Shown: piece by piece, positions 24,060 through 39,388 of the stretch
Numbering within the stretch: position 1 is the stretch's first letter
Layout of the letters: the number at the start of each line of letters is the position of its first letter
From: Planctomycetota bacterium
GTDB lineage: Bacteria > Planctomycetota > Phycisphaerae > Sedimentisphaerales > Anaerobacaceae
Assembly (NCBI GenBank): GCA_022563885.1
Contig: JADFMM010000021.1
Location: 1-39,563, forward strand
Direction: 5' to 3'
DNA: 39,563 nucleotides
Notes under the pieces: model-generated
What the model was told of the DNA's origin: nothing
Seen by the model: only the letters and a program-made list of their open reading frames with translations
The model's database searches: none
Translations under genes and position numbers: made by a program

Positions 24060-25271
24060 CTACTTCTGCGTCCACTTCTTCAGTTCTTCGGCCGCCCATT
24101 CAACCGTTTCATCGGCGTGACAGCCGTTGCAACTGTTCGGCACGCCGTACTTGATCGTGTCGAGGGGTGAGATGAAATCAAAACTGTGATTGCGCGATTC
24201 GCCCGCCACGGAATTCTTGCCGGTCAGAGGCATGTGGCACTCGACGCATAGACTGCCCGCACTGGTAGGCTGGTGGTGAGTATGCCCGGACAGTGTTTTC
24301 CCACTGAGAGGTGCAAAGTTGTTCGGGCCGTGACAAGTCAGGCAAAGGGAATTGCTGGCGGCCGATTTGATGTTCATCGAACGGTGACGCGAACCGTGGG
24401 AGTCGTGGCAGTTCGTACATTGCAGTCCTGCGTGGTACATCACACTCTGCACGAAGGTGTTGCCCTGAACACGATTCTTGTGAGCCGTGCCATTTTGCCA
24501 GAACTCTGGCGTCACGCGACCCTCCTCGGGTTCAAAGGCCTGCCAGAACTTCGACAGGTCCATCCCGGGCAGGTAACCGACCGCCCACGCATATTCGTTG
24601 CCGGGGGGTTTGCCGGCCTGATGGCATGAGAGGCAGATGTCCATGGACCGAGCGGTACTGAGACGAGCCGGATTGACGATATTGTCGATCAGTGGCGCAT
24701 CGGCATGGGTTTTGCCGGGCCCGTGACAGCTCTCGCAGGCAATGTTCAATTCCGTCCACTTCTGCGTGTAATGATCCGACGCCACGCTGTGGCACCCCGC
24801 GCAGAGCTTGAAGTTGGAACGACTCTGCCAGTCTTGGTGATGGGGATACCACCAGTCGCCTCGTCCGCGATAGGGTTGCCACTTTTCCTGGCTCACGCTC
24901 CACTGGGCCGGATAGACCACGTCCATTTCGTCAATCTCACCGATGTACCTCTGTTTCCAGCGGCTGCCGATCACCCACTTGACGTCTTCGAGTTCAAATT
25001 GGCGATACTCGCTCGGTTGATTGAAATCCCCAACAATCGTTTTGTTCGGTCCCGATGCCACGGCCGGCTGAATCATCTTGGCATGCAGCGTTCCCTTCCA
25101 TCCGTCGAAGTGCGCCTCATGACACTCCGCGCAGCGGGCCGAGCCGACGTATTGGCTCTGATCGATTCGTTGCCATTGGAAAGGCTCTTCGCTGGTGGCC
25201 TTTGTTTGGGCAGTCCCAGGTGAGAGAAAGATCCCCTCAAGAAACACGACGACAAGAATGATGCATCTCAT
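24060..25271 (-). CDS. Octaheme c-type cytochrome
   Basis: 403-residue periplasmic cytochrome with a cleavable signal (MRCIILVVVFLEGIFLSPG). Eight CXXCH sites are visible: CAECH, CAGCH, CESCH, CLSCH, CTNCH, CLTCH, CVECH and CNGCH. The opening YVGSARCAECHEAHFDGWKG is typical of the cytochrome c554/octaheme and TPR-cytochrome group. A long haem-free stretch (VKWVIGSRWKQRYIGEIDEM) between sites 1 and 2 is also a feature of that group. All haem sites are standard CXXCH; no lysine-type CXXCK site is seen, so it is not a canonical nitrite reductase or hydroxylamine oxidoreductase. GAAAGGAG precedes the ATG. The porin gene is 52 bases upstream and the binding-protein gene 51 bases downstream on the same strand, suggesting periplasmic redox work on the transported substrate. 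Confidence 0.93.
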   Translation of the reverse strand: MRCIILVVVFLEGIFLSPGTAQTKATSEEPFQWQRIDQSQYVGSARCAECHEAHFDGWKGTLHAKMIQPAVASGPNKTIVGDFNQPSEYRQFELEDVKWVIGSRWKQRYIGEIDEMDVVYPAQWSVSQEKWQPYRGRGDWWYPHHQDWQSRSNFKLCAGCHSVASDHYTQKWTELNIACESCHGPGKTHADAPLIDNIVNPARLSTARSMDICLSCHQAGKPPGNEYAWAVGYLPGMDLSKFWQAFEPEEGRVTPEFWQNGTAHKNRVQGNTFVQSVMYHAGLQCTNCHDSHGSRHRSMNIKSAASNSLCLTCHGPNNFAPLSGKTLSGHTHHQPTSAGSLCVECHMPLTGKNSVAGESRNHSFDFISPLDTIKYGVPNSCNGCHADETVEWAAEELKKWTQK

Positions 25272-25323: not shown

Positions 25324-26052
25324 CTACCAACTGAGGGCCAATCCCATTGTGAGCTGCCAATCGGGCGCGGCACGGGAAATGCCTCGTCGCACGCCCGCGT
25401 CCAGCGCGAGGCCAGGGCGAGAGGGCGGTTCCCAGATCACCCCGAGCAGACCGGAACTCTCTGCGGACTCGCCACGGGCACTTTCCCCGTTGATCTCGCC
25501 CACAAGTCTCCAATCGGGGCTAACGGGCAATTCCCCTATGACACCCCAGAGTCCAAAGGAATCTCTGTCAACACGGTCCAACCCGCCGCCGAAGTTGATA
25601 TGGTAGGTGAAAGGCGACAGTTGCCCGCTGACGATACCGATCGCCTCGAATCCAACCTGGTTCTCCTCCGTGACGGTCGAGGGGAACAAAAACCCGGCTT
25701 CCACGGCAAGGCTGAGTCCGGGTTGATCCTGGAGCGCTCCTTCCCGCAGGATGCCTTTTAGAAACAATGCGGGATCGACCCATTCGGACGCCTCTCCGGA
25801 CGGATGCTCCACTTCAAACTCTGCCACCAGTTCCCATGTGTCGGAGAGACCGTAGTTGTACACGATCTGGGGCGTGATGAAGGTGTCCTCGCCTTTGGAT
25901 CGCTCCCAGTTGAAATAACCCAGTTCGACCTCGGTCTCTCCACGCTCGACGACGTCTGCATCCGTCGATTCGAAGGGGCGGTAGCACCAAGCCGGCGCGG
26001 GCGCCATGAGCAGACCGAGCAGCAAAAGGCATAATTTTGTCTTTTGAATCAT
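25324..26052 (-). CDS. Outer-membrane beta-barrel (porin-like) protein
   Basis: 242 residues with a signal peptide ending near APAWCYRP. The mature part alternates hydrophobic and polar residues in strand-length stretches (TEVELGYFNW, TPQIVYNYGLSDTWELVAEFEVEH, AIERGVRRG-like ends) and finishes in LTMGLALSW, an aromatic C-terminal residue as recognised by the BAM machinery. About ten to twelve strands would fit. It resembles the transporter/MetA-pathway porin group rather than a general trimeric porin. It is the first gene of the operon that continues with the octaheme cytochrome and the ABC importer. A weak ribosome-binding site precedes the ATG. Confidence 0.8.
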   Translation of the reverse strand: MIQKTKLCLLLLGLLMAPAPAWCYRPFESTDADVVERGETEVELGYFNWERSKGEDTFITPQIVYNYGLSDTWELVAEFEVEHPSGEASEWVDPALFLKGILREGALQDQPGLSLAVEAGFLFPSTVTEENQVGFEAIGIVSGQLSPFTYHINFGGGLDRVDRDSFGLWGVIGELPVSPDWRLVGEINGESARGESAESSGLLGVIWEPPSRPGLALDAGVRRGISRAAPDWQLTMGLALSW

Positions 26053-26228: not shown

Positions 26229-26503
26229 TCAGTAGACCTGCCCGGAATGTTGCGCCCCATGGCAGTTCATGGTGCACATGCCCTGGAAGACGCCCGTGTC
26301 CACGAACTCCAGACGTTCCGTGCCCGAATCTCCGGAGACAATGCTCGTATCAAAGTTGGTCAGATGCGTGTGGTTGTTGCGGCTGTGGCAGGCATAGCAC
26401 AAGGCGTAGGCGAACTCACTTTCCGAGGTAAAGTCCGAGGTTTCGTAGTGATGTTTGAGCAGCGGCCGATAGATGGAGCCATGAGGTCCGCGGGTGGCGG
26501 ACC
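26229..26503 (-). pseudogene. Decayed partial copy of the large cytochrome's 3' end
   Basis: About 90% identical to the C-terminal end of the cytochrome gene at 27157-28809, including the same last residues (QHSGQVY and stop). It lacks the 114 bases between two copies of TGTTGCGGCT that are at 27303-27312 and 27417-27426 in the full gene; here the sequence continues straight across one copy. The deletion is in frame (38 codons) and removes the CSACH haem site. Homology stops abruptly at about 26503, so there is no N-terminal part. The unusual CX3CH motif is kept (CTMNCH). Confidence 0.85.
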
Positions 26504-26631: not shown

Positions 26632-26666
26632 GCGTGCGACTCTGTTATCGTATTAGGAGTAAAGCC

Positions 26667-26900
26667 ATGTCAACACTAAGCAAGAAGGCGACTATTTATC
26701 TTGATCCAGACATTCATAGAGCCTTGAAGATTAAGGCGGCAGCCACCTCCACTTCCATTTCCGAGCTGATCGACAATGCGATTCGTCACGAACTTGCATT
26801 GGATGAAGAGGATCTGCGCACTTTTGATGATCGCGCCAGTGAGCCGACTGTATCGTTTGAGAAAGTGCTGAAGGATCTAAAGGCCAATGGCAAAGTTTAG
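26667..26900 (+). CDS. RelB/RHH-type antitoxin
   Basis: 77-residue antitoxin. The N-terminal half is a ribbon-helix-helix DNA-binding segment (KATIYLDPDIHRALKIKAAATSTSISELIDNAI), here in pieces: the beta strand ATIYLD, helix ALKIKAAA and helix ISELIDNAI. The acidic C-terminus (DEEDLRTFDD, SFEKVLKDLK) would wrap the toxin. The ATG at 26667 is preferred over one at 26634 because TAGGAG lies seven bases ahead. It overlaps the toxin gene by 14 bases. By family knowledge it neutralises the toxin and represses the shared promoter. Confidence 0.88.
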   Translation: MSTLSKKATIYLDPDIHRALKIKAAATSTSISELIDNAIRHELALDEEDLRTFDDRASEPTVSFEKVLKDLKANGKV

Positions 26901-27144
26901 CATAGAGATCAAGAAGTCAGCGATCAAGGAACTCAACGCCATTGTCAAGAAAGACTTAAAGAGAATCCTATCGAAAATACGTTCCCTTGCAGACGACCCT
27001 CGGCCGATGGGATGCGTAAGACTATCAGGACAGGAACGATATCGGCTCAGACAGGGAGATTATAGAATACTGTATTCGGTTGAAGATGATGTGTGCGTCG
27101 TGTATGTCGTTAAGATAGCTCATAGAAAAGATGTTTACCGCTAA
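26887..27144 (+). CDS. RelE/ParE-superfamily toxin
   Basis: 85-residue toxin of the RelE type, probably a ribosome-dependent mRNA interferase or a gyrase-directed ParE. The typical pattern is present: FSIEIKKSAIKELNAI, LSGQERYRLRQGDYRILYSV and a closing KIAHRKDVYR, which supplies the conserved basic and Tyr residues. The start overlaps the antitoxin end. It is convergent with the large cytochrome gene, whose stop is only 12 bases away, so read-through in either direction would produce antisense RNA. Confidence 0.9.
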   Translation: MAKFSIEIKKSAIKELNAIVKKDLKRILSKIRSLADDPRPMGCVRLSGQERYRLRQGDYRILYSVEDDVCVVYVVKIAHRKDVYR

Positions 27145-27156
27145 TACTGTTCTCTC

Positions 27157-28809
27157 TCAGTACACCTGCCCCGAATGCTGCGTGCCATGGCAGCTCATGT
27201 AGCACATGCCCTGGAAGACGCCCATGTCCACGAACTCCAGGCGATCCGTGCCCGGGTCTCTGGAGACAATGCTCGTATCAAAGTTGATCAGATGCGTGTG
27301 GTTGTTGCGGCTGCCCTGGGCGGAACTGATGCCGTGGGCATCGTGACAGGCGGAACAGGGAATTCTTTGGTCCAAATGGAGTCGGTGCGTGGGGAAGCTC
27401 TCGTCACTCAGGATGCTGTTGCGGCTATGGCAACTGTAGCACAAGGCGTAGGCGAACTCACTTTCCGAGGTAAAGTCCGAGGTTTCGTAGTGATGTTTGA
27501 GCAGCGGCCGGTAGATGGAGCCATGAGGTCCGCGGGTGGCGGACCCTTCCTCGGAACTGTGGCAGTCGGTGCAGTAAATGACACTGGCCACCGACAGCCC
27601 GGCTCGCAGGCTGGGGACATTCTTGCTGACGCCCGGGCCCACCACGGGATGGAAGGAGTGAGCCGAGGGGTCGAACTCCAAACGTGTATTCGTCTGCGTC
27701 ACCACCCGGGTGATGTCTGAGCCGATGCGGCTCGGGTTGTCTGCGTGGCATTTGAAGCAGACCTCGTACTCAAAGCGCGCCTGCGGCGTCACGCCGCCCG
27801 ACGAGGTGATTCCGGTGACATGCCGCATCGCCCCTTGGATCAGGGGGGCCTGGGCGTCCTGTTTCTGGACCGCATGCGGGTTGTGGCAGTCGGAACACTC
27901 GACATGACGAGACATCGCCAGGGGCGATTCTCTCAGATCGTGATTGTTGCGGAAGGCAACGACATCGTGGCGACTGGGTTTGATCAACTCGGCCTTGATG
28001 TCCGAGGTGCCGACGGTTCCGTCGTGACAACTGAAGCAGGTCTCCTCCGATTGCTCGAAGTGCAGCAGCCGCTCGGGACCGCCGGCCGAATGGACCTTGT
28101 GACAGGCCATGCAGGCCAGGTCCCCTACGGTCTGGTGCGGGCCGTCCGCCAGCAGCCGGTTGTGGGACCCCATCACCGATGCGCTGTCATGGCGATGCGA
28201 GGAGACGGACCAGCCCTGCATGGTGTGGCAGCTCACGCACATGCGGGAGCGTTGATTGGACATCGTCAGGAAATCGCCAAACTGATTGTCGTGGGCGTCG
28301 TGACAGGTCGTGCACTGCAACTCGTTGTCGCCGTCGAGCTTGAGGGTCTCGGGAAGCGTCGAAGCAGGCCGAAGCTGGGGATCCTTGGCGACCAGGGCAT
28401 CGGTGTAGGCGAAGCTAATGGGATGGTCGTCGGAAAGATCGGTCCCCAGGTTGGCCTCTCCGGGCCCGACGAACGCGCCTCCGGGACGGAGGGTGCCCGT
28501 GAAGCCGGAGGCCACGGTGCCGTCGTGGCAACTGAGACACATCTTGCTGGACCCCGTGGGCTGTCCGACGACGGCATCCAAGGAAGAACTCGCATAGATC
28601 TTGTAGACCGTGGGGGAGAGTGTCTGATCCCACAGCACCGATCTAGAGGTCACATGAGGCGTGTGACAGAACGCGCACGCGTCACCTCCTGCCGACGCCG
28701 ACAGGTCATGGGGAGAACCCGTGACGGTGACCGCGATGACCTTGGGCACGATACCACATAGGAGACCCAGGGCAAGCAGCTTGACAGGCCGTTTACAGTG
28801 AATTGGCAT
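27157..28809 (-). CDS. Secreted multiheme cytochrome with 11 CXXCH and one CX3CH site
   Basis: 550 residues from the ATG at 28809 (MPIHCKRPVKLLALGLLCGI, a signal peptide). Sites in order: CAFCH, CLSCH, CTTCH, CVSCH, CMACH, CFSCH, CSDCH, CFKCH, CTDCH, CYSCH, CSACH, and near the end CYMSCH, which has three residues between the cysteines. The first part (SPHDLSASAGG, CAFCHTPH, CLSCHDGTVASG) is the doubled-CXXCH/cytochrome c3-like family and resembles the small tetraheme protein at 34555-35175, so the protein looks like an extended relative. Its start overlaps the end of the beta-propeller gene by 17 bases, and it ends the minus-strand electron-transfer cluster. Likely place: outer surface or periplasm at the conduit. 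An upstream ATG in frame exists but leads to no signal peptide. Confidence 0.93.
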   Translation of the reverse strand: MPIHCKRPVKLLALGLLCGIVPKVIAVTVTGSPHDLSASAGGDACAFCHTPHVTSRSVLWDQTLSPTVYKIYASSSLDAVVGQPTGSSKMCLSCHDGTVASGFTGTLRPGGAFVGPGEANLGTDLSDDHPISFAYTDALVAKDPQLRPASTLPETLKLDGDNELQCTTCHDAHDNQFGDFLTMSNQRSRMCVSCHTMQGWSVSSHRHDSASVMGSHNRLLADGPHQTVGDLACMACHKVHSAGGPERLLHFEQSEETCFSCHDGTVGTSDIKAELIKPSRHDVVAFRNNHDLRESPLAMSRHVECSDCHNPHAVQKQDAQAPLIQGAMRHVTGITSSGGVTPQARFEYEVCFKCHADNPSRIGSDITRVVTQTNTRLEFDPSAHSFHPVVGPGVSKNVPSLRAGLSVASVIYCTDCHSSEEGSATRGPHGSIYRPLLKHHYETSDFTSESEFAYALCYSCHSRNSILSDESFPTHRLHLDQRIPCSACHDAHGISSAQGSRNNHTHLINFDTSIVSRDPGTDRLEFVDMGVFQGMCYMSCHGTQHSGQVY

Positions 28810-29869
28810 GGTCTGAGACCTCGAGAATTTCAAAGACTTGAATTCGTTTATTGTAAGTGTCCGCGACATAGATCCAGTTCCTCTCATCGATCCAAATGCC
28901 GGCAGGCAGCCAGAACTCACCCAGGCCGCGTCCCTCCTGGCCAAAGACCATCAGCATGCGCCCCTGCCGATCGAAGACCTGGACATTCTCAAACTGGCGG
29001 TCCGTCACATAGATATTGCCGAAACGATCCGTCGCCACACCACAGGGGTGGGCAAAGTAGCCGGGACGATCACCTTGTTCTCCGAAGCGCGTTAGGAACT
29101 GTCCGGTGGGGGAAAACACCTGAATACGATAGTTCAGCGTGTCGCTGACATAGATCTGTCCCGCCCGGTCGCTCCATAGCTGGGTCGGGAAGTTGAACTG
29201 CCCGGGTCCGATGCCGCGCGACCCTATCGTCCTCAGGAAGGTACCGGTCTCGGAGAACACCTTTAGATCGTGGCTTCCGGTGTCCGCGACAACGATCTCC
29301 TGCCGCTGAGGCAAGTGTACGATGCCTGCCGGTCGCTTGAGTTCGTTGGCGCCAAATGAGATCTGGTGGTCGCCCGCCGCATTAAAGACACAGACACTGT
29401 GCAACTGACTGTCCACCACGTAGAGGGACGCGGAGCTCAGGGCCAGTGCCACGGGTCGCTGCAGCGTCTGGCCTGACTGGATGGCGCCAAACTGGCTGTA
29501 TCGCTTGCGGCCGAAATCGAACAGATGGATCACCTGGCCCGCACTGTCGGCAACGTATAGCCTGCCGTCGCCACTCATGGCCACGGCACAGGGGGCCAGA
29601 AGTGCCCCGGCCTTTTTTTTGCCAAAGACCAGTTGGGCCAATCCACCCAGCAGGCCGGGTCCCCGCGCGACGTCCCCCTCGGCGGCGATGGTCGCCAGAT
29701 GGCGGATGCGGGCAGGCTGGGGTGGCTCCGGCCAGACGGGAGCCGCCTGGCTTCGACTGAACAACTGGTCTCTCGGACCGCTACACCCCGCGCAGCCGAT
29801 GAGCGCCAGGAGTCCTAATGCCAATCCCAGATGAATGCGAAACATGTCCATAAACATCCTTAAGTTCAA
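28793..29869 (-). CDS. NHL-repeat (6-bladed beta-propeller) lipoprotein
   Basis: 358 residues. The signal ends in a lipobox (ALIGCAGC), so the protein is anchored to a membrane. From about residue 85 there are repeated NHL blades (GDGRLYVADSAGQVIHLFD, QEIVVADTGSHDLKVFSE, GQIYVSDTLNYRIQVFSP, GNIYVTDRQFENVQVFDR, NWIYVADTYNKRIQVFE), at least five clear ones, enough for a six-bladed propeller. The segment before the blades (PARIRHLATIAAEGDV, LVFGKKK) is shared with the propeller protein at 32995-34476. Its ATG overlaps the barrel gene stop as ATGA and its 3' end overlaps the next cytochrome. Propellers of this kind recur beside porin-cytochrome loci and may position cytochromes at the barrel. Confidence 0.92.
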   Translation of the reverse strand: MNLRMFMDMFRIHLGLALGLLALIGCAGCSGPRDQLFSRSQAAPVWPEPPQPARIRHLATIAAEGDVARGPGLLGGLAQLVFGKKKAGALLAPCAVAMSGDGRLYVADSAGQVIHLFDFGRKRYSQFGAIQSGQTLQRPVALALSSASLYVVDSQLHSVCVFNAAGDHQISFGANELKRPAGIVHLPQRQEIVVADTGSHDLKVFSETGTFLRTIGSRGIGPGQFNFPTQLWSDRAGQIYVSDTLNYRIQVFSPTGQFLTRFGEQGDRPGYFAHPCGVATDRFGNIYVTDRQFENVQVFDRQGRMLMVFGQEGRGLGEFWLPAGIWIDERNWIYVADTYNKRIQVFEILEVSDHANSL

Positions 29870-31920
29870 AACATTCGTTTCAATCGCGCGTAGACGTAAG
29901 TGCCCTTCCTCTCATGGGCCAGCCTATTCAAGAAATCATATTCAATCCCCACATCGGCACTGACCTGTCGCACTGCGCACTTGAGGTTTACATCCCACTG
30001 AAAACCGCGGGTCTTGCCCTGGCGGCTGTCGTCCTCGTCGCGGTAGTCCAGACGGCCCGAGAGCCGAAAGGTCTCCGTGAGGCGGCTCCGAACGGTGCCG
30101 CCCACTGTCATCAACTGCACATCATAAACAGGGTCCTCAAGATAGTCTATCAGGCTATGAGAGCCGTACAACGTCATGCGGGTCGCCTCACTGATGGGAA
30201 CCAGGTAACTCCCCTCCATGCGTTTGCTGCGGGAAGGGATGCGGGTGGAGTCTTCATGGCTGTACTCCGCCAGCAGTCTCAGACCCTTGCGCCTATAATC
30301 GACACCCACGGTATTGATGGCAAATTCATCGGGGACAATGCTCGTCGCCAGAGATTCAAGGGCCTCGCTGCGATTCTGAAACTCGTAGTAGACGGACACG
30401 CCCAGATGAAACTGCTCTCTCAAACGGACGCTGTGCATCAGCGCGATCTCTTCCCGCGCGGGTTCTGTCAGGGAGTCGTAGTCAATCGACAGCGTCTGGT
30501 CGCCGTCCGTGGTGATGTCCCCCCCTAGGAGTACGATGATCTCGGTGATCCCGCGGGTCTGGCTGATGAAGTAGTCGCTGTAGATCACGGAGCGATCGGC
30601 GCTCAGCACCACGATGGAGGAGGCAAGCACATTGGTGCGCTTCAGTTCGATGCGAAGAGATCCTGCCACCAGGAAGGGATGACGTTCGGCGACGACGTTG
30701 ACCAGGGTCGTGCCACCGGTCTGTTCGAGGTCCAGTCGGGAAAAGTTGTAGCGGGCAAAGAGGGTCCCCCAGGGATTGTGACGGTAGTAGTTGAATCCGA
30801 CGTCCCCGCCCAACTCGCTCTGATCCACTCCCTGGCCCAGATCGGCCGCGGAGAGATACAGGCTGCCATGGGTCACGAGGTTCTGGTAGAAGCGGCGGGT
30901 AAAACCGGTTTCGCCCCGCAGTTCGTTGTTCTTCAGGGTAGGACGCTCGGATTCGTGGAAGGAAAGCCCATAGTGCGTCTGAAAGGCCTGCGAGTGCCGC
31001 AGCTTGAGCCGTTCCTGCCACAGTAGACGCACCAACTCGAAGTCTCCGGATTGGTCCAGGCGATCGACGAAGGAGTCCAGCCGATACTGTTCCTCGTCGC
31101 CAAAACGCTGGTGGTGCGACAGCGTGACGATCTGTTCCTGCCGGTCGATGAAGACGCCCCCCTGCGTCTGCGTCGTGTCATTGTTCCGAAAATCGAAACT
31201 GAGATCGGACTGCTCGGAAAACGCGTGATCAACGGAGTAACCGATATGCTGGTCTTCCCGCCTAAAGAGGTCCTGTTCGTTCAGGCCTTGCCCCTGTTGC
31301 CGCGTCTTGTTCTGCCCTATATGCAGACTCATGGGCCACTCCCCGGACCGATAGGCCAGAGAGGTATTGATGCCCTCCCGCTCACTACGAAGCGACCCGG
31401 CGAACTGACGGGGAATGCGGGCTTCCGATTTGTCGATGCGGAAGGTCCAGGGGAACATCTTCTCGGGCAGGACGTCGGCGGACAGGTCATACTCCTGCAA
31501 GGTCCCACTGCCGTTGTCAGAGGTACCGTCGAGTTCATACTCATGCTGCGTCAACCCCGCCCCCACGGAGGCACGGTAGGAGAAAAATTCGGGACTGCCC
31601 ACGTGGCCTTGGGTGCGAAGACGAATCCGCTCCTCGAATTCCAGCGCCTCGAACTGCGTGTCGGCCCCATTCGTCTCCTGTCGGTCTTCCCGTCTTTCGG
31701 CGACCCACTCCACCTCACCCCGCACCTGCTCGACGTGCAGCAACTCGCGCTCTCGGCCGCCCACGGTCACGTGACAGCCGGCCGTCAGGACGACCATGAC
31801 CAGAAACCAAGCCGCGATCGTCAGTACCCTGGCTACTTGGGTCGCTGGTAATATTGACCTGCGCGCCGGCCCGGTCCCCGCAAAGTCCAAGTATCTAAAT
31901 GGGCGACTACCATACGCCAT
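29866..31920 (-). CDS. Large outer-membrane beta-barrel of a porin-cytochrome conduit
   Basis: 684 residues. A hydrophobic signal with a Cys (VLTAGC, near residue 49) suggests a lipoprotein-type or ordinary signal. After about 50 polar residues the protein is a series of amphipathic strands with charged turns (EFFSYRASVGAGLTQHEYEL, MSLHIGQNKTRQ, TLFARYNFSRLDLEQ, FHLGVSVYYEFQNR, LRLLAEYSHEDS) up to the last strand ending YVYARLKRMF with terminal Phe, the BAM-type signal. No CXXCH site is present. Size and strand content fit a 20- to 26-strand barrel such as the MtrB/OmbB type, which lets a periplasmic cytochrome touch an outer one. I could not match it to MtrB by sequence. The ATG shares one base with the pentaheme gene's stop (TGATG), indicating coupled translation. 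Confidence 0.85.
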   Translation of the reverse strand: MAYGSRPFRYLDFAGTGPARRSILPATQVARVLTIAAWFLVMVVLTAGCHVTVGGRERELLHVEQVRGEVEWVAERREDRQETNGADTQFEALEFEERIRLRTQGHVGSPEFFSYRASVGAGLTQHEYELDGTSDNGSGTLQEYDLSADVLPEKMFPWTFRIDKSEARIPRQFAGSLRSEREGINTSLAYRSGEWPMSLHIGQNKTRQQGQGLNEQDLFRREDQHIGYSVDHAFSEQSDLSFDFRNNDTTQTQGGVFIDRQEQIVTLSHHQRFGDEEQYRLDSFVDRLDQSGDFELVRLLWQERLKLRHSQAFQTHYGLSFHESERPTLKNNELRGETGFTRRFYQNLVTHGSLYLSAADLGQGVDQSELGGDVGFNYYRHNPWGTLFARYNFSRLDLEQTGGTTLVNVVAERHPFLVAGSLRIELKRTNVLASSIVVLSADRSVIYSDYFISQTRGITEIIVLLGGDITTDGDQTLSIDYDSLTEPAREEIALMHSVRLREQFHLGVSVYYEFQNRSEALESLATSIVPDEFAINTVGVDYRRKGLRLLAEYSHEDSTRIPSRSKRMEGSYLVPISEATRMTLYGSHSLIDYLEDPVYDVQLMTVGGTVRSRLTETFRLSGRLDYRDEDDSRQGKTRGFQWDVNLKCAVRQVSADVGIEYDFLNRLAHERKGTYVYARLKRMF

Positions 31921-33014
31921 CAGCGTCCACCGTCGCCTTCCCGATTGTCGGGTGTGGTGAGGGCCTCGTCAATGCGACGCCTATACTGCTCGATGGTCTT
32001 TCGCATGGCCGCCGGGACCAATCCGCTCTCCAGGACCTCCGTAAAACCGCGTCGCGCGTCCTCGAGATGCCCTCGGTGGTACTGTTCCATACTCTCATAG
32101 TAGCGCTGCGCCACGCGTCGCGTGTGATCCCGTCCGGACAGGGCTTGCTGTTCGGCGGCGATGCGTTCTTGGGCTTCCAGATGACGGAACACGTCTTGCC
32201 ACTGTTGGGTCTCAGACGCGGAGACCTTGCCGCTGCCCCGGATACCCATCAGGTAGGCCCTGGCGCTGCCAAGGTCTCGCTGCTCAATGTGGCGCAGCAC
32301 CGTAGCGACCATGATCCGGAAGTCGGTGCCGCGCTCCGCATCCTCGTGGGCCAGACTCAACACCGCTTTATAGTCTTCATGGTCGAAGGAGGTCTTCCCC
32401 CCGGCAGACGCGGCGATCAACAGAAACTTGATGTCGCTTGAATGGCCCGTGTGGCAGTCCGTACACCGCCGATAGCCGGGTAAGTCATGATAGTCGATCT
32501 CTTCAATCGCTCTGGAATCGTGACACTGATAGCAGAGGCCTGGGGCCGGTTCGAGCAAGAGGTGCTCATGTAGAGAACGATGCGGTTCATGACACCACAG
32601 GCAGTCCCCCTCGGCGACGGGTTCATGGACCCAGTGCCGATGGACAGCGATCTCTTGGTGACATTCGTAGCAGAGCTGAGGCACGTCCGCGACCAAACCC
32701 ACTTCCCGAGAAAACTGACGCTCAATCTGGTCCCCGTGGCAACGCTCGCACTGTCTGACCGGCTCGTGTACGTACCAGGTAAGCTCGGCGCTCGCCTTTA
32801 GGGCGAATAGGTCGTCATCCCTCGAGTCTGGTCGAGCAGGGCTCTCTGCAGTCTCTTCGGGCCGGGCGGGAACCCCTTCAAAAAAAAAAGTCAAGAGAGA
32901 CCGTCGCGCAGACTCGCCGCAACTGCTGACACCCGCCAGACAGATCGTCAAAACACACCATCCTATGCGTCGGCACATTACCCGAGACAAGCGCCTACCG
33001 ACCTTTCTCTGCAT
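31920..33014 (-). CDS. Pentaheme cytochrome lipoprotein with a C-terminal helical domain
   Basis: 364 residues. The signal ends LAGVSSC (lipobox), then an acidic/Pro-rich linker. Five haem sites (CERCH, CYECH, CLWCH, CYQCH, CTDCH) lie within about residues 90-195, with intervening HEP and HRHW histidines as distal ligands. From about residue 205 the protein is haem-free and helical. The last 50 residues share a motif with the end of the beta-propeller protein encoded just upstream (YYxSM, AxxG, VLxSGLxP, AM, ID). A run of ten A on the plus strand (32880-32889) encodes Phe-Phe-Phe in the N-terminal region and is a slippage-prone site. The start overlaps the upstream gene by 20 bases. Likely the periplasm-side electron donor to the barrel. 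Confidence 0.92.
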   Translation of the reverse strand: MQRKVGRRLSRVMCRRIGWCVLTICLAGVSSCGESARRSLLTFFFEGVPARPEETAESPARPDSRDDDLFALKASAELTWYVHEPVRQCERCHGDQIERQFSREVGLVADVPQLCYECHQEIAVHRHWVHEPVAEGDCLWCHEPHRSLHEHLLLEPAPGLCYQCHDSRAIEEIDYHDLPGYRRCTDCHTGHSSDIKFLLIAASAGGKTSFDHEDYKAVLSLAHEDAERGTDFRIMVATVLRHIEQRDLGSARAYLMGIRGSGKVSASETQQWQDVFRHLEAQERIAAEQQALSGRDHTRRVAQRYYESMEQYHRGHLEDARRGFTEVLESGLVPAAMRKTIEQYRRRIDEALTTPDNREGDGGR

Positions 33015-34476
33015 CTAGACTGGGAGCAGGCAGCACTTGGTCTATTTGCGCCAGGTGACTTCGGACCGTCACCGCCATGGCAGGCGGAATCAGCCCGCTG
33101 TGCAAGACAGCCGAGAGACCCTCTCTGGCCTCGGCGTACTGCCCGATCCGATAGAGGTGCATGCTACGATAGTAGATACCCGCAATCTCCTGCATGCGCG
33201 CCTCCCGTTCGCGATCGGTCGAACTCGTGAAGGGATCGGCCGGGAGCCGCTGCATCTCATCCGTCTGCAGCGTAGAGGCCACCGGCCCCGTTCCACCCGC
33301 AGCCGTATCGTCGCGCTTCTCTTCTCTCTGCGCCAGTGACGCCAAGCGCGCGTCTTCAATGGCCTTCTCCTGCAGGGGAAAATGCCCAAAGCCATAGACG
33401 TTTATCTTGGCGCCATACTGGTTGGAGACAAACACCAGGAATTCAATCTCTGCCCCCTCCGCCGCATAGGATTCGAACAGGTCCACATGCTCATAGTCGA
33501 GACAGACCGAGGCGGGCAGGTTCATATTGCCCGGCCGGTTGCCCGGAAACCCGAAGAACATCAACAGCGCGCCCTCACGGTCATAGATCTTCGTGACCTC
33601 GGGTGCCGCATCCACCACCCAGATGCGCCCCTCACGGTCGACCTCGATACCCTTGGGCCGGACGAAATGATGAATGCTCCTTCCCGCCTGGCCAAAGGCC
33701 AATTTAAGGTCCCCGGCGCTGTCAAACTCTGTGACACGTCCCAGCAGCTTGTCGGTGACCAGGACATTCCCCTGGTCATCCACGGCAAGATCCCCAATGA
33801 GTACAAACTGGCCCGGGGCATCCCCCGCTTTTCCCATGCGCTGTAGCACCTCCCCGGTGGCGATGTCCAGGACGACGACTTGATTGTTTTTCATATCTGT
33901 GATGTAACAACGCTGGCCGCGTACCTCAACGTCTATGGGCGTCATCTCCAGGGACTCGCCCAACACGTTGATCAGGGCATCATCGGGGCCATAGACAAAC
34001 ACCTTGCCCGCCGTGGGATCGGCAATGTATTTGGTGCCCGCCACGATGCAGATGTTGACCGGATTGGTCATACGTCGTGCCTCGCTCAGGTAACCAAAGG
34101 TCCTCTCTCTCAGGTCCAGTATGGTGACTCTTTTTTTCTCAACGTCGCAGACGTAAAGCTTTCCATCGTAGACGTCGATCCCATATGGTTTGGCGATCCA
34201 CTGCGGGGCAGTCTCCTCCTTGCCAAAGACCAGGGTCTCGAGGCCACTGGGCTCCTCCGCGTCGCGGTCCAACAGATCAGACGCGCTGGAGTAGGAGGTC
34301 AAAAACTGTATGCGGGGCTTGTCGGGCGCAGGAGGGTAGAAGACGCCCTGCGCCGGCGTGGCGGTCGGTCGACGGTCCAGTCGCACTCGGCCCAAGCAAC
34401 CCCACACAGACCAGGCTGCCAAGATGCCCACACAAACAACTAAACCATTGGCGCATAACGACTTCGTGATCACCAT
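32995..34476 (-). CDS. NHL-repeat beta-propeller lipoprotein with C-terminal TPR-like tail
   Basis: 493 residues. Signal with lipobox (SVWGC), then the family leader FYPPAPDKPRIQFLTSYSS and LETLVFGKEE. Blades span about residues 95-340 (GKLYVCDVEKKRVTILD, GQRCYITDMKNNQVVVLD, GNVLVTDKLLGRVTEFD, GRIWVVDAAPEVTKIYD). A linker rich in Glu, Ala and Thr leads to a C-terminal helical piece (IYYRSMHLYRIGQYAEAREG, VLHSGLIPPAM) that looks like one TPR-like unit and matches the tail of the pentaheme lipoprotein. It is the first of five overlapping cistrons, 78 bases after the small tetraheme gene. The shared tails suggest that the two proteins use the same docking partner. Confidence 0.9.
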   Translation of the reverse strand: MVITKSLCANGLVVCVGILAAWSVWGCLGRVRLDRRPTATPAQGVFYPPAPDKPRIQFLTSYSSASDLLDRDAEEPSGLETLVFGKEETAPQWIAKPYGIDVYDGKLYVCDVEKKRVTILDLRERTFGYLSEARRMTNPVNICIVAGTKYIADPTAGKVFVYGPDDALINVLGESLEMTPIDVEVRGQRCYITDMKNNQVVVLDIATGEVLQRMGKAGDAPGQFVLIGDLAVDDQGNVLVTDKLLGRVTEFDSAGDLKLAFGQAGRSIHHFVRPKGIEVDREGRIWVVDAAPEVTKIYDREGALLMFFGFPGNRPGNMNLPASVCLDYEHVDLFESYAAEGAEIEFLVFVSNQYGAKINVYGFGHFPLQEKAIEDARLASLAQREEKRDDTAAGGTGPVASTLQTDEMQRLPADPFTSSTDREREARMQEIAGIYYRSMHLYRIGQYAEAREGLSAVLHSGLIPPAMAVTVRSHLAQIDQVLPAPSLDAEKGR

Positions 34477-34554
34477 GCACGGGGTATCGACACTTTCAAA
34501 GGTCGGCGTTAGAAATCAGGACCTTGGCTTGCCAGTGAGGGAAGGGACGACGGG

Positions 34555-35175
34555 CTACTTGTTGTGACAGGTCAGACAGAGTGCGCTGCCGGCGTTACTC
34601 TTGACCAAAAGGTAAGCAGCCCCCGATGCATTGTGCACATCGTGACAGGAAGTGCATTCGAGCCGGCCCTTATACAGCAGGTCCGAATCAATCGTGCCCC
34701 CCAGTCCTGACGGATGGACCTTGGGATCGTAGAGTTCCCTGTCGATCACGGCCAAGGCTGAATCGTAGGTAAAAGAGATGGGATGCGAGGTGCTCAGGTC
34801 GGGGCCTATTTGCAGCAAGTTGAACTCTGTCCCGCCGGTGAACCCGCCGAAATTGTCGAGTGCCACCGTGCCGTCATGACAGCTCAAACAGAGCTTGGAG
34901 GTGGCGGTGGGCTGCCCGATGGTCTGACTGCCGTCGAAGGAATCGCTCGAATAGAGAACGAAGGTGGCGTCGGTGAGCTGGTGGTTCCAGAGACGTCCCC
35001 CCTCCACGTCCGGGACGGCATTGTGAGGGGTATGGCAGGTTATGCAGATCTCACCGCTGAAGTTCCAATTCGCCGTACTGAAATCATGGGCAGACCCACT
35101 GATCCCACCGTGGAGGGGAAACACCAGCGCCATGCTCACACACAAAACGAGCAGAACCAACACCTGCCACTTCAT
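34555..35175 (-). CDS. OmcE-like tetraheme cytochrome, candidate extracellular filament subunit
   Basis: 206 residues from the ATG at 35175 (MKWQVLVLLVLCVSMALVFP). An AAGGAGG eight bases upstream decides this start over an ATG 11 codons earlier. Four CXXCH sites are at 44-48, 96-100, 174-178 and 200-204; additional His at 30, 51, 65, 131, 154 and 181 can serve as distal ligands. The layout HDFSTANWNFSGEICITCHTPH, LCLSCHDGTVALD, HPISFTYDSAL, LECTSCHDVHN and a C-terminal SALCLTCHNK is what I know of the Geobacter OmcE family, whose members polymerise into nanowires with some hemes ligated across subunits. The signal has no lipobox, consistent with secretion. It has its own strong promoter inside the cluster, as expected for an abundant subunit. 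Filament formation is inferred. Confidence 0.9.
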   Translation of the reverse strand: MKWQVLVLLVLCVSMALVFPLHGGISGSAHDFSTANWNFSGEICITCHTPHNAVPDVEGGRLWNHQLTDATFVLYSSDSFDGSQTIGQPTATSKLCLSCHDGTVALDNFGGFTGGTEFNLLQIGPDLSTSHPISFTYDSALAVIDRELYDPKVHPSGLGGTIDSDLLYKGRLECTSCHDVHNASGAAYLLVKSNAGSALCLTCHNK

Positions 35176-35232
35176 CCCACACGCCTCCTTTGTACAATCC
35201 GATGCCAAGTAAAACTAAGTACGGCTTCACAG

Positions 35233-35263
35233 AACGGTATTAAGAACCGTTTATTATACCGTT
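35233..35263. promoter_or_regulatory. Inverted repeat overlapping the tetraheme promoter
   Basis: AACGGTAT (35233-35240) and ATACCGTT (35256-35263) form a perfect 8-base dyad with a 15-base gap. The upstream half covers the -10 hexamer and the other half falls about 10-15 bases into the transcript. It could be an operator or an early RNA hairpin. Confidence 0.5.
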
Positions 35264-35281
35264 TCGGAGCCGAAAATTCAA
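35253..35281 (-). promoter_or_regulatory. Strong sigma-70-like promoter of the tetraheme gene
   Basis: On the minus strand TTGAAT (35281-35276) and a perfect TATAAT (35258-35253) are 17 bases apart, with a leader of about 70 bases to the start at 35175. It lies after the stop of the ResB-like gene (35306), so the tetraheme gene can be transcribed independently of that gene. Confidence 0.72.
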
Positions 35282-35305
35282 GTTCATTAGGTGAGGAAAG
35301 CAGGG

Positions 35306-36472
35306 CTAGGGGACGCCGGGATCTCGCGGCCGCTTGACGCCGTAATGCAGAGTGACCGTCCCTTCACTGGTCCGGTGATGGTGAGGTTTGCCGATCTCCA
35401 GCACGATCTGCTCCTCGCTGCTGCCGCCTCCCAGAACGTCGACCACCACCGCCGGACGGAGGAGTCGCTCCCTGTTGTTGGCCCACGACCTCGTCAACGC
35501 GGCACCGACGTGGACCTCTTCGACGGTGAACGAATAGGCCTCGTCCGAAAATGCAAAAGACTGTCCTATTGAAACGGTGTCCAGCCGCAGTCTCTTTTCC
35601 TGCCCGGAAAGGACGAAGGTCACGCCGGTGGGCAGCACGATCAGCGTGTAACGACCCGCACTCCGGACCCGTTCAAAATCGACAAAGGTGGCCCGCAAAG
35701 GGAGCTTCTCTTGCCCATGCCCATCTCCAAAGTGGGGAAAGCGGGACCACAGCCAGCACTTCTGTCGGGTCTTGCCGTCGCTGACCTCTACCTGAAGGGC
35801 AGGATTGTCTGCTTTGTCCGGTGAGTCGAAGACCTCTCCCGTCTCCAAGTGAATACCATAATGAGACATGTAGTCCAACACCTTGATCGTGTAGCCGGGA
35901 ACCGTGATGGCGTTTCTCTGTCCCAGATCGAGCGATATCTCTAAGGGAGGCGCTTCCTCCAGAGGCCAAACCCTTAAGAGCCCCAATCTGGCGCCGGCCA
36001 CGGTCAAGGTCTCACGGATCCGCTCGATGGTATGGACGTCTTTCAGCGGCACCACACCCACCGACCCGATCGAAGCGGAGACGGACTGCCGTTGGGGATC
36101 TTGAGAGTCGAGCCAGACTGCCTGAGCCATGGCCGGCCCCCGCAAGGCCAGTCGGACCAGAACGCCCCCGTCCGCTTGCGGCTGAGCCGTTTCCTGCCAC
36201 ACCAGATCGGGCAGATAGTGCCGCAACGTCACACGGACCGTAGTCCCCGGAACGGCAAAGGTCTGATTCAGTGTCCGCGGCCGATGACGATCTGAGACTG
36301 CTATGGGGATCTCCAGCGCCGGCCCCTCGAACCCCAAGAACAAGGTCACCGTCCAGCGTCCCTCAAACATGGGGGCATGCGGGTCTTGAGGATTGGCGGA
36401 CACCAGCGTGCCTGCGGCGAACACCGCCGTTATCAGGACATGGACGCCGAGATATCTTTTACAACTTCCCAT
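35306..36472 (-). CDS. Secreted protein resembling the periplasmic part of ResB
   Basis: 388 residues with a signal peptide (VHVLITAVFAAGTLVSA) and no other membrane segment. The middle and C-terminal parts (GYTIKVLDYMSHYGIHLETG, NPALQVEVSDGKTR, WLWSRFPHFG) resemble the periplasmic beta domain seen in ResB-type cytochrome c assembly proteins and in secreted proteins near multiheme clusters. The match is by eye and weak. No CXXCH or CXXC site. It is the first gene of the electron-transfer cluster, 130 bases before the tetraheme start. Possible roles are cytochrome maturation or chaperoning; an accessory surface protein is equally possible. Confidence 0.6.
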   Translation of the reverse strand: MGSCKRYLGVHVLITAVFAAGTLVSANPQDPHAPMFEGRWTVTLFLGFEGPALEIPIAVSDRHRPRTLNQTFAVPGTTVRVTLRHYLPDLVWQETAQPQADGGVLVRLALRGPAMAQAVWLDSQDPQRQSVSASIGSVGVVPLKDVHTIERIRETLTVAGARLGLLRVWPLEEAPPLEISLDLGQRNAITVPGYTIKVLDYMSHYGIHLETGEVFDSPDKADNPALQVEVSDGKTRQKCWLWSRFPHFGDGHGQEKLPLRATFVDFERVRSAGRYTLIVLPTGVTFVLSGQEKRLRLDTVSIGQSFAFSDEAYSFTVEEVHVGAALTRSWANNRERLLRPAVVVDVLGGGSSEEQIVLEIGKPHHHRTSEGTVTLHYGVKRPRDPGVP

Positions 36473-36617: not shown

Positions 36618-36776
36618 AGAGCCCCTACGCAAAATGACTCTGCATTCAAACGGCTTATTCTGCGCCTGGACGGCGTCAGGCTCCATCGACCGTCCTCGGA
36701 CGGCCTGCTTCGCCTTCCCTGCCAGACACAGAAACGCTCGTTTTCGGTGCGACGATTCATTTTGCGTAGGCGCTCT
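36618..36776. mobile_element. 159-bp MITE-like element with 23-bp terminal inverted repeats
   Basis: Left end 36618-36640 and the reverse complement of 36754-36776 agree at 21 of 23 positions (core CCTACGCAAAATGA). The interior holds a GC-rich dyad (GACCGTCCTCGGACGG) and an open minus-strand frame (NKPFECRVILRRG) that parallels the repeat-derived tail of the oxidoreductase relic near 4284-4330. The right end overlaps the TAG stop of the AbiEii-like relic at 36777-36775. The left end abuts the upstream region of the cytochrome cluster. Confidence 0.72.
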
Positions 36777-37325
36777 AAGCCAAAACGGACCGAATGTTCT
36801 CAACGGTAATAAGGGTAGCGTCGCTCGGGTGTTCGAGAAAGGATTTCACATCTGCTGCGATTGCTGGACAGTCGAGATCGTTTAGCGTTTCAATAAGGTG
36901 GCCTTTCCAGCCGGACGAGTCCATAGCCCCCGCACCCTGTGTCTGGTCTAATGCCTTCTGGAGTTGACCAAGGTTGGGTTCAACGGGAGGCACCTTGCCC
37001 CGATACCAAAGCAGATCATACCAATCTCTGCTTTTGCTATACTGCCGCGTAAGGAGTGCGTGAACTTTCCCAGCCATGAGCGAAGAGAGATCGTAGTGAT
37101 TAGGGATCGGCAATAAATAAATTGGGCATTCAAAAGTCCAAGTTATTTCTTGCCGGTCCCTTAATCGACAGCATGGCGTGCCGTGTGATGAGGTCGCGCA
37201 CCGACCGTGCACCCGCAGGCGGATTCGTGTCGATCTCTAGCTTGATCGATAGTTTCTGGCTCTTCATGGCAGCAAGCCCGGCTTCCTGCAGCAGTCCTTC
37301 TAGTTTGATATTGTAAATACATTAT
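36775..37325 (-). pseudogene. AbiEii/AbiGii-family nucleotidyltransferase toxin, interrupted relic
   Basis: C-terminal two thirds of an AbiEii-like protein, the toxin part of type IV toxin-antitoxin systems. The upstream piece (about 37164-37325) reads YNIKLEGLLQEAGLAAMKSQ, then IKLEIDTNPPAGARS and HAMLSI. It then runs into a 58-base palindromic insert with stop codons. Downstream the gene resumes at HYDLSSLMAGKVHALLTRQY and SRDWYDLLWYRG and ends at 36775. Removing the insert plus one copy of TTA restores MLSI-N-HYDLSS in frame. The N-terminal part with the nucleotidyltransferase catalytic motif is missing: an in-frame stop precedes it, and the sulfatase gene ends there. No AbiEi antitoxin is present. 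Confidence 0.85.
37103..37160. mobile_element. 58-bp palindromic element with TTA target duplication
   Basis: The ends GGGATCGGCAATAAATAA and (inverted) GGGACCGGCAAGAAATAA match at 16 of 18 positions, and the inner AAATTGGGC/GTCCAAGTT arms pair as well, so nearly the whole unit folds into one hairpin. It is flanked on both sides by TTA (37100-37102 and 37161-37163). It splits the AbiEii-like gene. A second, diverged copy is at 39324-39388. Confidence 0.75.
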
Positions 37326-39323: not shown

Positions 39324-39388
39324 TAGGAACCGGCAATAAATAAATTGGGCAATTGGGCATTCAAAAGTCCAAGTTATTTCGTGGTTCT
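39324..39388. mobile_element. Second copy of the palindromic element
   Basis: Same core as 37103-37160 (CGGCAATAAATAAATTGGGC, CATTCAAAAGTCCAAGTTAT). It carries an extra 8-base AATTGGGC direct repeat and a diverged right end (GTGGTTC). Flanks are TTA-like on both sides. It sits at the broken 5' end of the GH43-like relic. The following 39389-39530 shows no supported gene, only short similarity (CGGTCCCTG, GCGGGCA) to the segment around 39290-39297. Confidence 0.68.

Follow-up and report, generated by a model that had tools for sequence, protein, structure and literature searches.

The window analysed here, a stretch of 39,563 nucleotides that makes up one entire contig (JADFMM010000021.1) of a 6.5-Mb, 96% complete metagenome genome assigned to the Planctomycetota, carries at 27157–36472 seven genes, all on the minus strand, that probably encode the outer-membrane and extracellular half of a machine for extracellular electron transfer. 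Two of these genes are related to OmcE, the subunit of a cytochrome filament in Geobacter sulfurreducens: one encodes a small tetraheme protein of the OmcE family and the other a 12-heme cytochrome in which an OmcE-type protomer domain is fused to a further chain of hemes. The passage of electrons between such filaments and the cell interior has been described as not well understood (PMC10553843), and a fusion of protomer and heme chain, encoded beside a barrel and a filament-type gene in many phyla, is a concrete candidate for the joint, with an interface that can be tested. A module of OmcE-type filament and porin-cytochrome conduit is best called known in kind; the fusion partner is unusual, and the inner half of the machine is missing here.

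An open reading frame (ORF) check and counts of CXXCH motifs bear out the seven-gene layout and heme counts given in an initial annotation of this DNA. In order of transcription the locus encodes a 388-aa secreted protein, the 206-aa tetraheme cytochrome, a first NHL β-propeller lipoprotein (NHL1), a pentaheme lipoprotein of 364 aa, a 684-aa outer-membrane barrel, a second propeller lipoprotein (NHL2) and the 550-aa 12-heme cytochrome (Table 1). There are four CXXCH motifs in the 206-aa protein, five in the 364-aa protein, and 11 plus one C-terminal CX3CH in the 550-aa protein. Four junctions overlap (NHL1/pentaheme by 20 bp, pentaheme/barrel by 1 bp, barrel/NHL2 by 4 bp and NHL2/12-heme by 17 bp), so that five genes overlap end to start, as had been claimed, and both propeller assignments are confirmed by matches to the Pfam NHL family. 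The tetraheme gene was also said to have the best promoter and Shine–Dalgarno sequence of the cluster. The ribosome-binding site is indeed perfect and the promoter box matches the consensus at 10 of 12 positions, but a promoter scan found sites in the region at close to background frequency (8, against 5.4 ± 2.6 expected).

By its sequence, the small tetraheme protein can be assigned to the OmcE family, as the initial annotation had suggested. Searched as a single sequence with phmmer, it matches the OmcE filament subunit (PDB 7TFS) at E 4.9e-19, and a profile of 28 sequences does so over the full length at E 1.1e-42. Exactly eight histidines are invariant in the 28 relatives, four of them proximal ligands within CXXCH and four distal (H30, H51, H131, H181), and all eight align with histidines of 7TFS; the two proteins also have a C-terminal CXXCHxK in common. 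In a wider set of small tetraheme proteins, 71 of 73 end in CXXCHx[KR], and there are four distal histidines for four hemes. A second full-length match was obtained to PDB 9YUQ, a ‘putative multiheme cytochrome c’ of 218 aa present as 16 identical chains (E 3.8e-19 with the single sequence, 2.6e-41 with the profile). In OmcE and OmcS filaments one heme is ligated by a histidine of the neighbouring subunit (PMC9473688, PMC12954529), and we propose that the tetraheme protein is likewise a filament subunit, its polymerisation being suggested by this homology. In a planctomycete side clade (L059–L063, L083, L089, L095, L103) the tetraheme gene is more divergent and is placed after the 12-heme gene; in two of these loci (L089, L103) the heme 1 CXXCHxxH histidine has been lost, and they perhaps encode non-filament variants.

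The relationship to OmcE extends to the 12-heme protein, a feature absent from the initial annotation. Its N-terminal 196 residues match 7TFS at E 1.2e-20 (phmmer), and OmcE is also the sole significant PDB match of its AlphaFold2 model (Foldseek E 1.5e-5; Z 11.1 and root mean square deviation 3.0 over 155 residues). The OmcE-type protomer domain occupies approximately residues 30–196 and is followed by seven CXXCH and one invariant CX3CH, the last site. Across the family there are 12 proximal and 16 conserved distal histidines for the 12 hemes; the protein never ends in CXXCHx[KR], the chain instead running on past heme 4 to a conserved His205 soon after. From its sequence and predicted fold, the protein resembles a filament protomer extended by a second chain of hemes. 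The 16 distal ligands and the continuation past heme 4 would suit a piece at the end of a filament, and with an N-terminal protomer and an eight-heme chain such a piece could dock on one end or the other and pass electrons on. An assignment as a regular decaheme of the MtrA/DmsE type was considered, but models of that type match only parts of the protein and fall far under the cut-off, and 6R2Q_A, at Z 7.2, fits the predicted fold less well than OmcE does. No account of a 12-heme protein with an OmcE fusion came up in a literature search that did not take in the OmcE and Baquero 2023 nanowire papers, and its novelty is thus provisional.

How widely is this arrangement distributed? Scanning 84,980 species genomes with an alignment of the 12-heme protein yielded at least 562 confirmed relatives. 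We examined with profile hidden Markov models (HMMs) the neighbourhoods of the best 80 of these together with the window (81 loci, many of them cut by contig ends; phyla are as labelled in the records). Because the loci were picked by the 12-heme gene alone, their neighbours were not selected for. The order OmcE-like/propeller/pentaheme/barrel/propeller/12-heme is nonetheless unbroken in 35 loci; the run of barrel, NHL and 12-heme genes occurs in 58, the NHL and 12-heme genes are adjacent in 72, and the pentaheme lipoprotein gene lies directly upstream of the barrel gene in 56. Here and across phyla the barrel gene is flanked by the pentaheme and 12-heme genes. In five loci, which belong to a Calditrichota/Ignavibacteria/KSB1 branch, the two halves have traded places. 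Among 61 related genomes, the 10 with a relative of the OmcE-like gene are also the 10 with a relative of the barrel gene, and this co-occurrence, combined with the recurrence of the order across phyla, indicates that the association is not due to chance and that the cluster is a conserved gene unit, as had been anticipated.

The best 80 carriers come from about 13 named phyla and from KSB1: Planctomycetota, Nitrospirota, Thermodesulfobacteriota, Verrucomicrobiota, Lentisphaerota, Myxococcota, Hydrogenedentota, Sumerlaeota, Calditrichota, Ignavibacteriota, Chlorobiota, Bacteroidota and one Pseudomonadota bin. The expectation that such systems belong mainly to Geobacter-like bacteria and some archaea was therefore too narrow, and clusters of the OmcE type are by no means peculiar to Geobacter. 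In a tree, carriers group largely by phylum, with some exceptions, and the nearest named relatives of the window’s locus are Phycisphaerae. Bins may contain foreign contigs; three of the loci are chromosome-level (L054, L062, L063) and one relative, G019, is a single contig. Within Planctomycetota the 12-heme gene is patchy, being found in 21 of 392 genomes of an even sample. Plasmids gave no match to the 12-heme protein, and the only plasmid match to the OmcE-like protein, on Geoalkalibacter pGSUB1, lacks a cluster of this kind in its surroundings. Porin-cytochrome genes of Planctomycetota and KSB1 have already been reported from the Oslofjord tunnel (PMC10732223, cited in PMC13264449), and, judged by their names, the OFTM loci among our carriers probably come from the same study.

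The barrel is predicted with confidence by AlphaFold2 as an all-beta structure (predicted local distance difference test, pLDDT, 91.1; predicted template modelling score, pTM, 0.82) of about 28–30 strands, as counted from the strands listed for the model, with no plug, the N-terminal 66 residues included. The initial annotation had asked whether the pore could hold a cytochrome, and a large, plug-free barrel is the favourable outcome. The longest structural alignment listed is to MtrB (6R2Q_B; 415 residues, Z 15.2), but receptors of the TonB type score equally or higher, so that the fold would fit a conduit but does not prove one. A specific barrel family could not be named by fold search, many large barrels lying at similar Z, and viral contigs contained no match to the barrel. 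In the lipobox-like LTAGC of the barrel, the Gly–Cys pair does not vary among the eight nearest relatives; lipidation would be unusual for so large a barrel. Orthologues of the pentaheme lipoprotein have five CXXCH in most loci, and a short helical C-terminal repeat is common to the NHL1 and pentaheme families (cross-matches at E 2e-9 to 2e-15), which may therefore share a docking partner. The 388-aa gene also lies upstream in the clusters of relatives; its earlier label as ResB-like is unsupported, as none of 11 family members has any Pfam match, PF05140 (ResB) included, and no convincing PDB match was found.

In relatives the cluster extends inwards, adding a NapC/NirT-type (PF03264) 10-heme cytochrome, a 13-heme cytochrome and an AhpC/TPR protein; a histidine kinase and an operon for cytochrome c maturation (CcmE, CcmF, CcmA and others) are often present as well. 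In the window, only 130 bp separate the 388-aa and tetraheme genes, at the junction that in relatives holds the genes for the 13-heme and AhpC/TPR proteins. Neither the 13-heme nor the NapC-type gene was found anywhere in the genome of the window (G000) or in its sister G001, both of them incomplete metagenome genomes; G002, from the same genus, has both. The set is thus incomplete here, where a complete one had been envisaged. G000 retains a cytochrome c assembly protein. Against the sister genome, the ratio of nonsynonymous to synonymous substitution rates (dN/dS) is 0.08–0.27 for five comparable genes, indicating purifying selection on intact reading frames; the outer half therefore seems to be used with another donor, and some species would appear to retain it under selection without the usual inner half.

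We read the homologies, the gene order and the conservation of ligands, the folds predicted for barrel and protomer, the lack of the inner half in the assemblies and the purifying selection as follows. The tetraheme protein would be secreted and polymerise head to tail into a heme-stacked filament outside the cell, while the plug-free barrel, the pentaheme lipoprotein and the two propeller lipoproteins would make up an outer-membrane conduit or portal. The 12-heme protein would dock on the filament end through the ordinary subunit interface and hand electrons to the conduit, as the base (or cap) of the filament. Relatives would complete the path with a quinol dehydrogenase of the NapC type, a periplasmic 13-heme cytochrome and an operon for cytochrome c maturation; in the window species and its sister, where the inner half is gone, a different periplasmic donor would have to connect. 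While we regard this scheme as a whole as probable, the specific proposal of the 12-heme protein as the base piece for OmcE-type nanowires, joining them to a distinct conduit of barrel, pentaheme and two propellers spread over more than a dozen phyla, is offered tentatively, as an idea with somewhat less than even prospects.

Several observations weigh against the scheme. Among solved barrels none matches this one in sequence and, with MtrB tied with TonB-dependent receptors, its conduit homology is unproven. The model of the 12-heme protein is only moderately confident (pLDDT 72). No NapC/NirT-type quinol dehydrogenase was found in G000 to feed the machine with electrons. Filament-forming cytochromes of Geobacter and their non-forming paralogues are not separable by sequence alone (PMC12977616). 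The last point opens the way to a reading in which the tetraheme protein is a soluble or surface cytochrome that never polymerises, the cluster being an ordinary porin-cytochrome conduit with the 12-heme protein as its outer terminal reductase. For many paralogues of the OmcE/OmcS kind no filament is known (PMC12977616), and five of the 73 small copies lack the CXXCHxxH histidine of the first heme; but the full-length match to OmcE, the strict retention of exactly eight histidines and the C-terminal CXXCHxK, and the further OmcE protomer domain that the partner gene encodes make this reading unlikely. Similarly, the barrel and propellers could be a portal for the secretion and maturation of cytochromes, as proposed for GSU2493–2500 and OmcS, with electrons taking another route. 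The Geobacter block beside omcS-like genes is linked to nanowire maturation and secretion (PMC12977616), and the barrel here is very wide, its closest solved folds including ushers and TonB receptors. We are nevertheless doubtful of a portal, given that the pentaheme gene lies directly upstream of the barrel gene in 56 of 81 loci, as a conduit predicts, and that neither a peptidyl-prolyl isomerase nor a 26-heme gene, features of such blocks, is among the ORFs of the cluster.

Electron export is in turn only one of two possible directions, which gene content does not fix: the machinery could run inwards, taking electrons from Fe(II), Mn(II), a metal or a partner cell. A locus in which an MtoA homologue accompanies an OmcE homologue and two NHL proteins has been described from the steel-corroding Geoalkalibacter ferrihydriticus (PMC12016550). 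We lean away from inward flow, considering the PF03264 domain in relatives and an otherwise heterotrophic-looking genome, with a sulfatase gene in the window. The NapC/NirT-type family is generally associated with oxidising quinols and exporting electrons. Finally, the cluster could be a decaying remnant left after loss of the inner half; the absence of the 13-heme and NapC-type genes from this and the sister genome would fit, as would the broken 12-heme duplicate and toxin–antitoxin pair alongside. With all frames intact, dN/dS in the low range given above, and the promoter-like box and Shine–Dalgarno sequence intact, we think decay improbable, and return to an outer half that would still be in use.

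Known systems share parts of this layout. The tetraheme protein resembles OmcE in its full-length homology, its four CXXCH, eight matching histidines and C-terminus, and in recurring as a protomer fold in the 12-heme partner, whereas the OmcE-like genes here are linked to a barrel, propellers, a pentaheme and an OmcE-fused 12-heme gene, and their products are putative filament subunits. The MtrCAB, Oet and Ext conduits likewise have a large outer-membrane barrel beside multiheme cytochromes, one a lipoprotein, but their usual pair of 8–10 hemes is replaced here by pentaheme and 12-heme proteins, with two propeller lipoproteins and a barrel lacking a sequence match to solved barrels. In the SEEP-SRB/Oet operon and the GSU2493–2500 block a filament-type cytochrome, a propeller and large cytochromes are clustered (PMC5539420, PMC10553843, PMC12977616), propellers accompanying the large cytochromes in the SEEP-SRB/Oet set (PMC5539420, PMC10553843); these differ in their 26-heme and 16-heme cytochromes and peptidyl-prolyl isomerase, none of which occurs here, and in a filament family that is OmcS/OmcX, not OmcE. 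Locus Ga0056053_02426–02431 of G. ferrihydriticus also combines an OmcE homologue, two NHL proteins and multiheme cytochromes, but was described with the MtoA homologue and without an OmcE-fused 12-heme protein (PMC12016550).

Table 1. Features of the cytochrome cluster and its edges, in coordinates of the window.
Feature	Position	Strand	Evidence or remark
388-aa secreted protein	35306..36472	-	Orthologues adjoin 13-heme gene in relatives
Sigma-70-like promoter TTGAAT-17-TATAAT, upstream of tetraheme gene	35281-35253	-	Consensus match alone, 10/12
Intergenic junction where relatives hold 13-heme and AhpC/TPR genes	35176..35305	-	Compared with L035, L036, L040, L042, L043
Shine–Dalgarno AGGAGG, perfect, 8 nt ahead of tetraheme ATG	35189-35184	-	Sequence match
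OmcE-like tetraheme cytochrome, 206 aa, signal peptide, CXXCHNK C-terminus	34555..35175	-	phmmer, profile, invariant His
NHL1, NHL beta-propeller lipoprotein, lipobox VWGC	32995..34476	-	Pfam NHL 4e-8
Pentaheme lipoprotein, 364 aa, 5 CXXCH, lipobox VSSC, TPR-like C-terminus	31920..33014	-	ORF and motif counts
Outer-membrane beta-barrel, 684 aa, lipobox TAGC, small beta insert 423-463	29866..31920	-	AlphaFold2
NHL2, NHL beta-propeller lipoprotein	28793..29869	-	Pfam NHL 2.2e-23
12-heme cytochrome, 550 aa (ATG at 28809)	27157..28809	-	phmmer, AlphaFold2 model, motif counts
Broken partial duplicate of 12-heme gene 3' end	26229..26503	-	Two direct repeats, 90% and 95% identity; HMM fragments

An Rfam search of the window gave no match. 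Between the 12-heme gene and its broken duplicate sits a toxin–antitoxin pair of the ribbon-helix-helix/ParE type (26634–27144, plus strand; ParE Pfam E 1.2e-10), and the sister genome also has a broken 12-heme copy, less degraded (L045, 4617–5148). Just past the cluster, an unrelated 8-heme cytochrome (C554/GSU2203-like; 24060–25271) adjoins a 242-aa protein (25324–26052) that looks like a small outer-membrane barrel. On the other side, an AbiEii-like nucleotidyl transferase fragment (36775–37212) lies between the cluster and the sulfatase gene. Near this upstream edge there is also a 20-bp exact repeat (37127–37146 and 39358–39377), where none is expected by chance; the segment 37120–37161 has a further match on the sister contig L045, next to its broken copy of the 12-heme gene, and the repeat may therefore be mobile.

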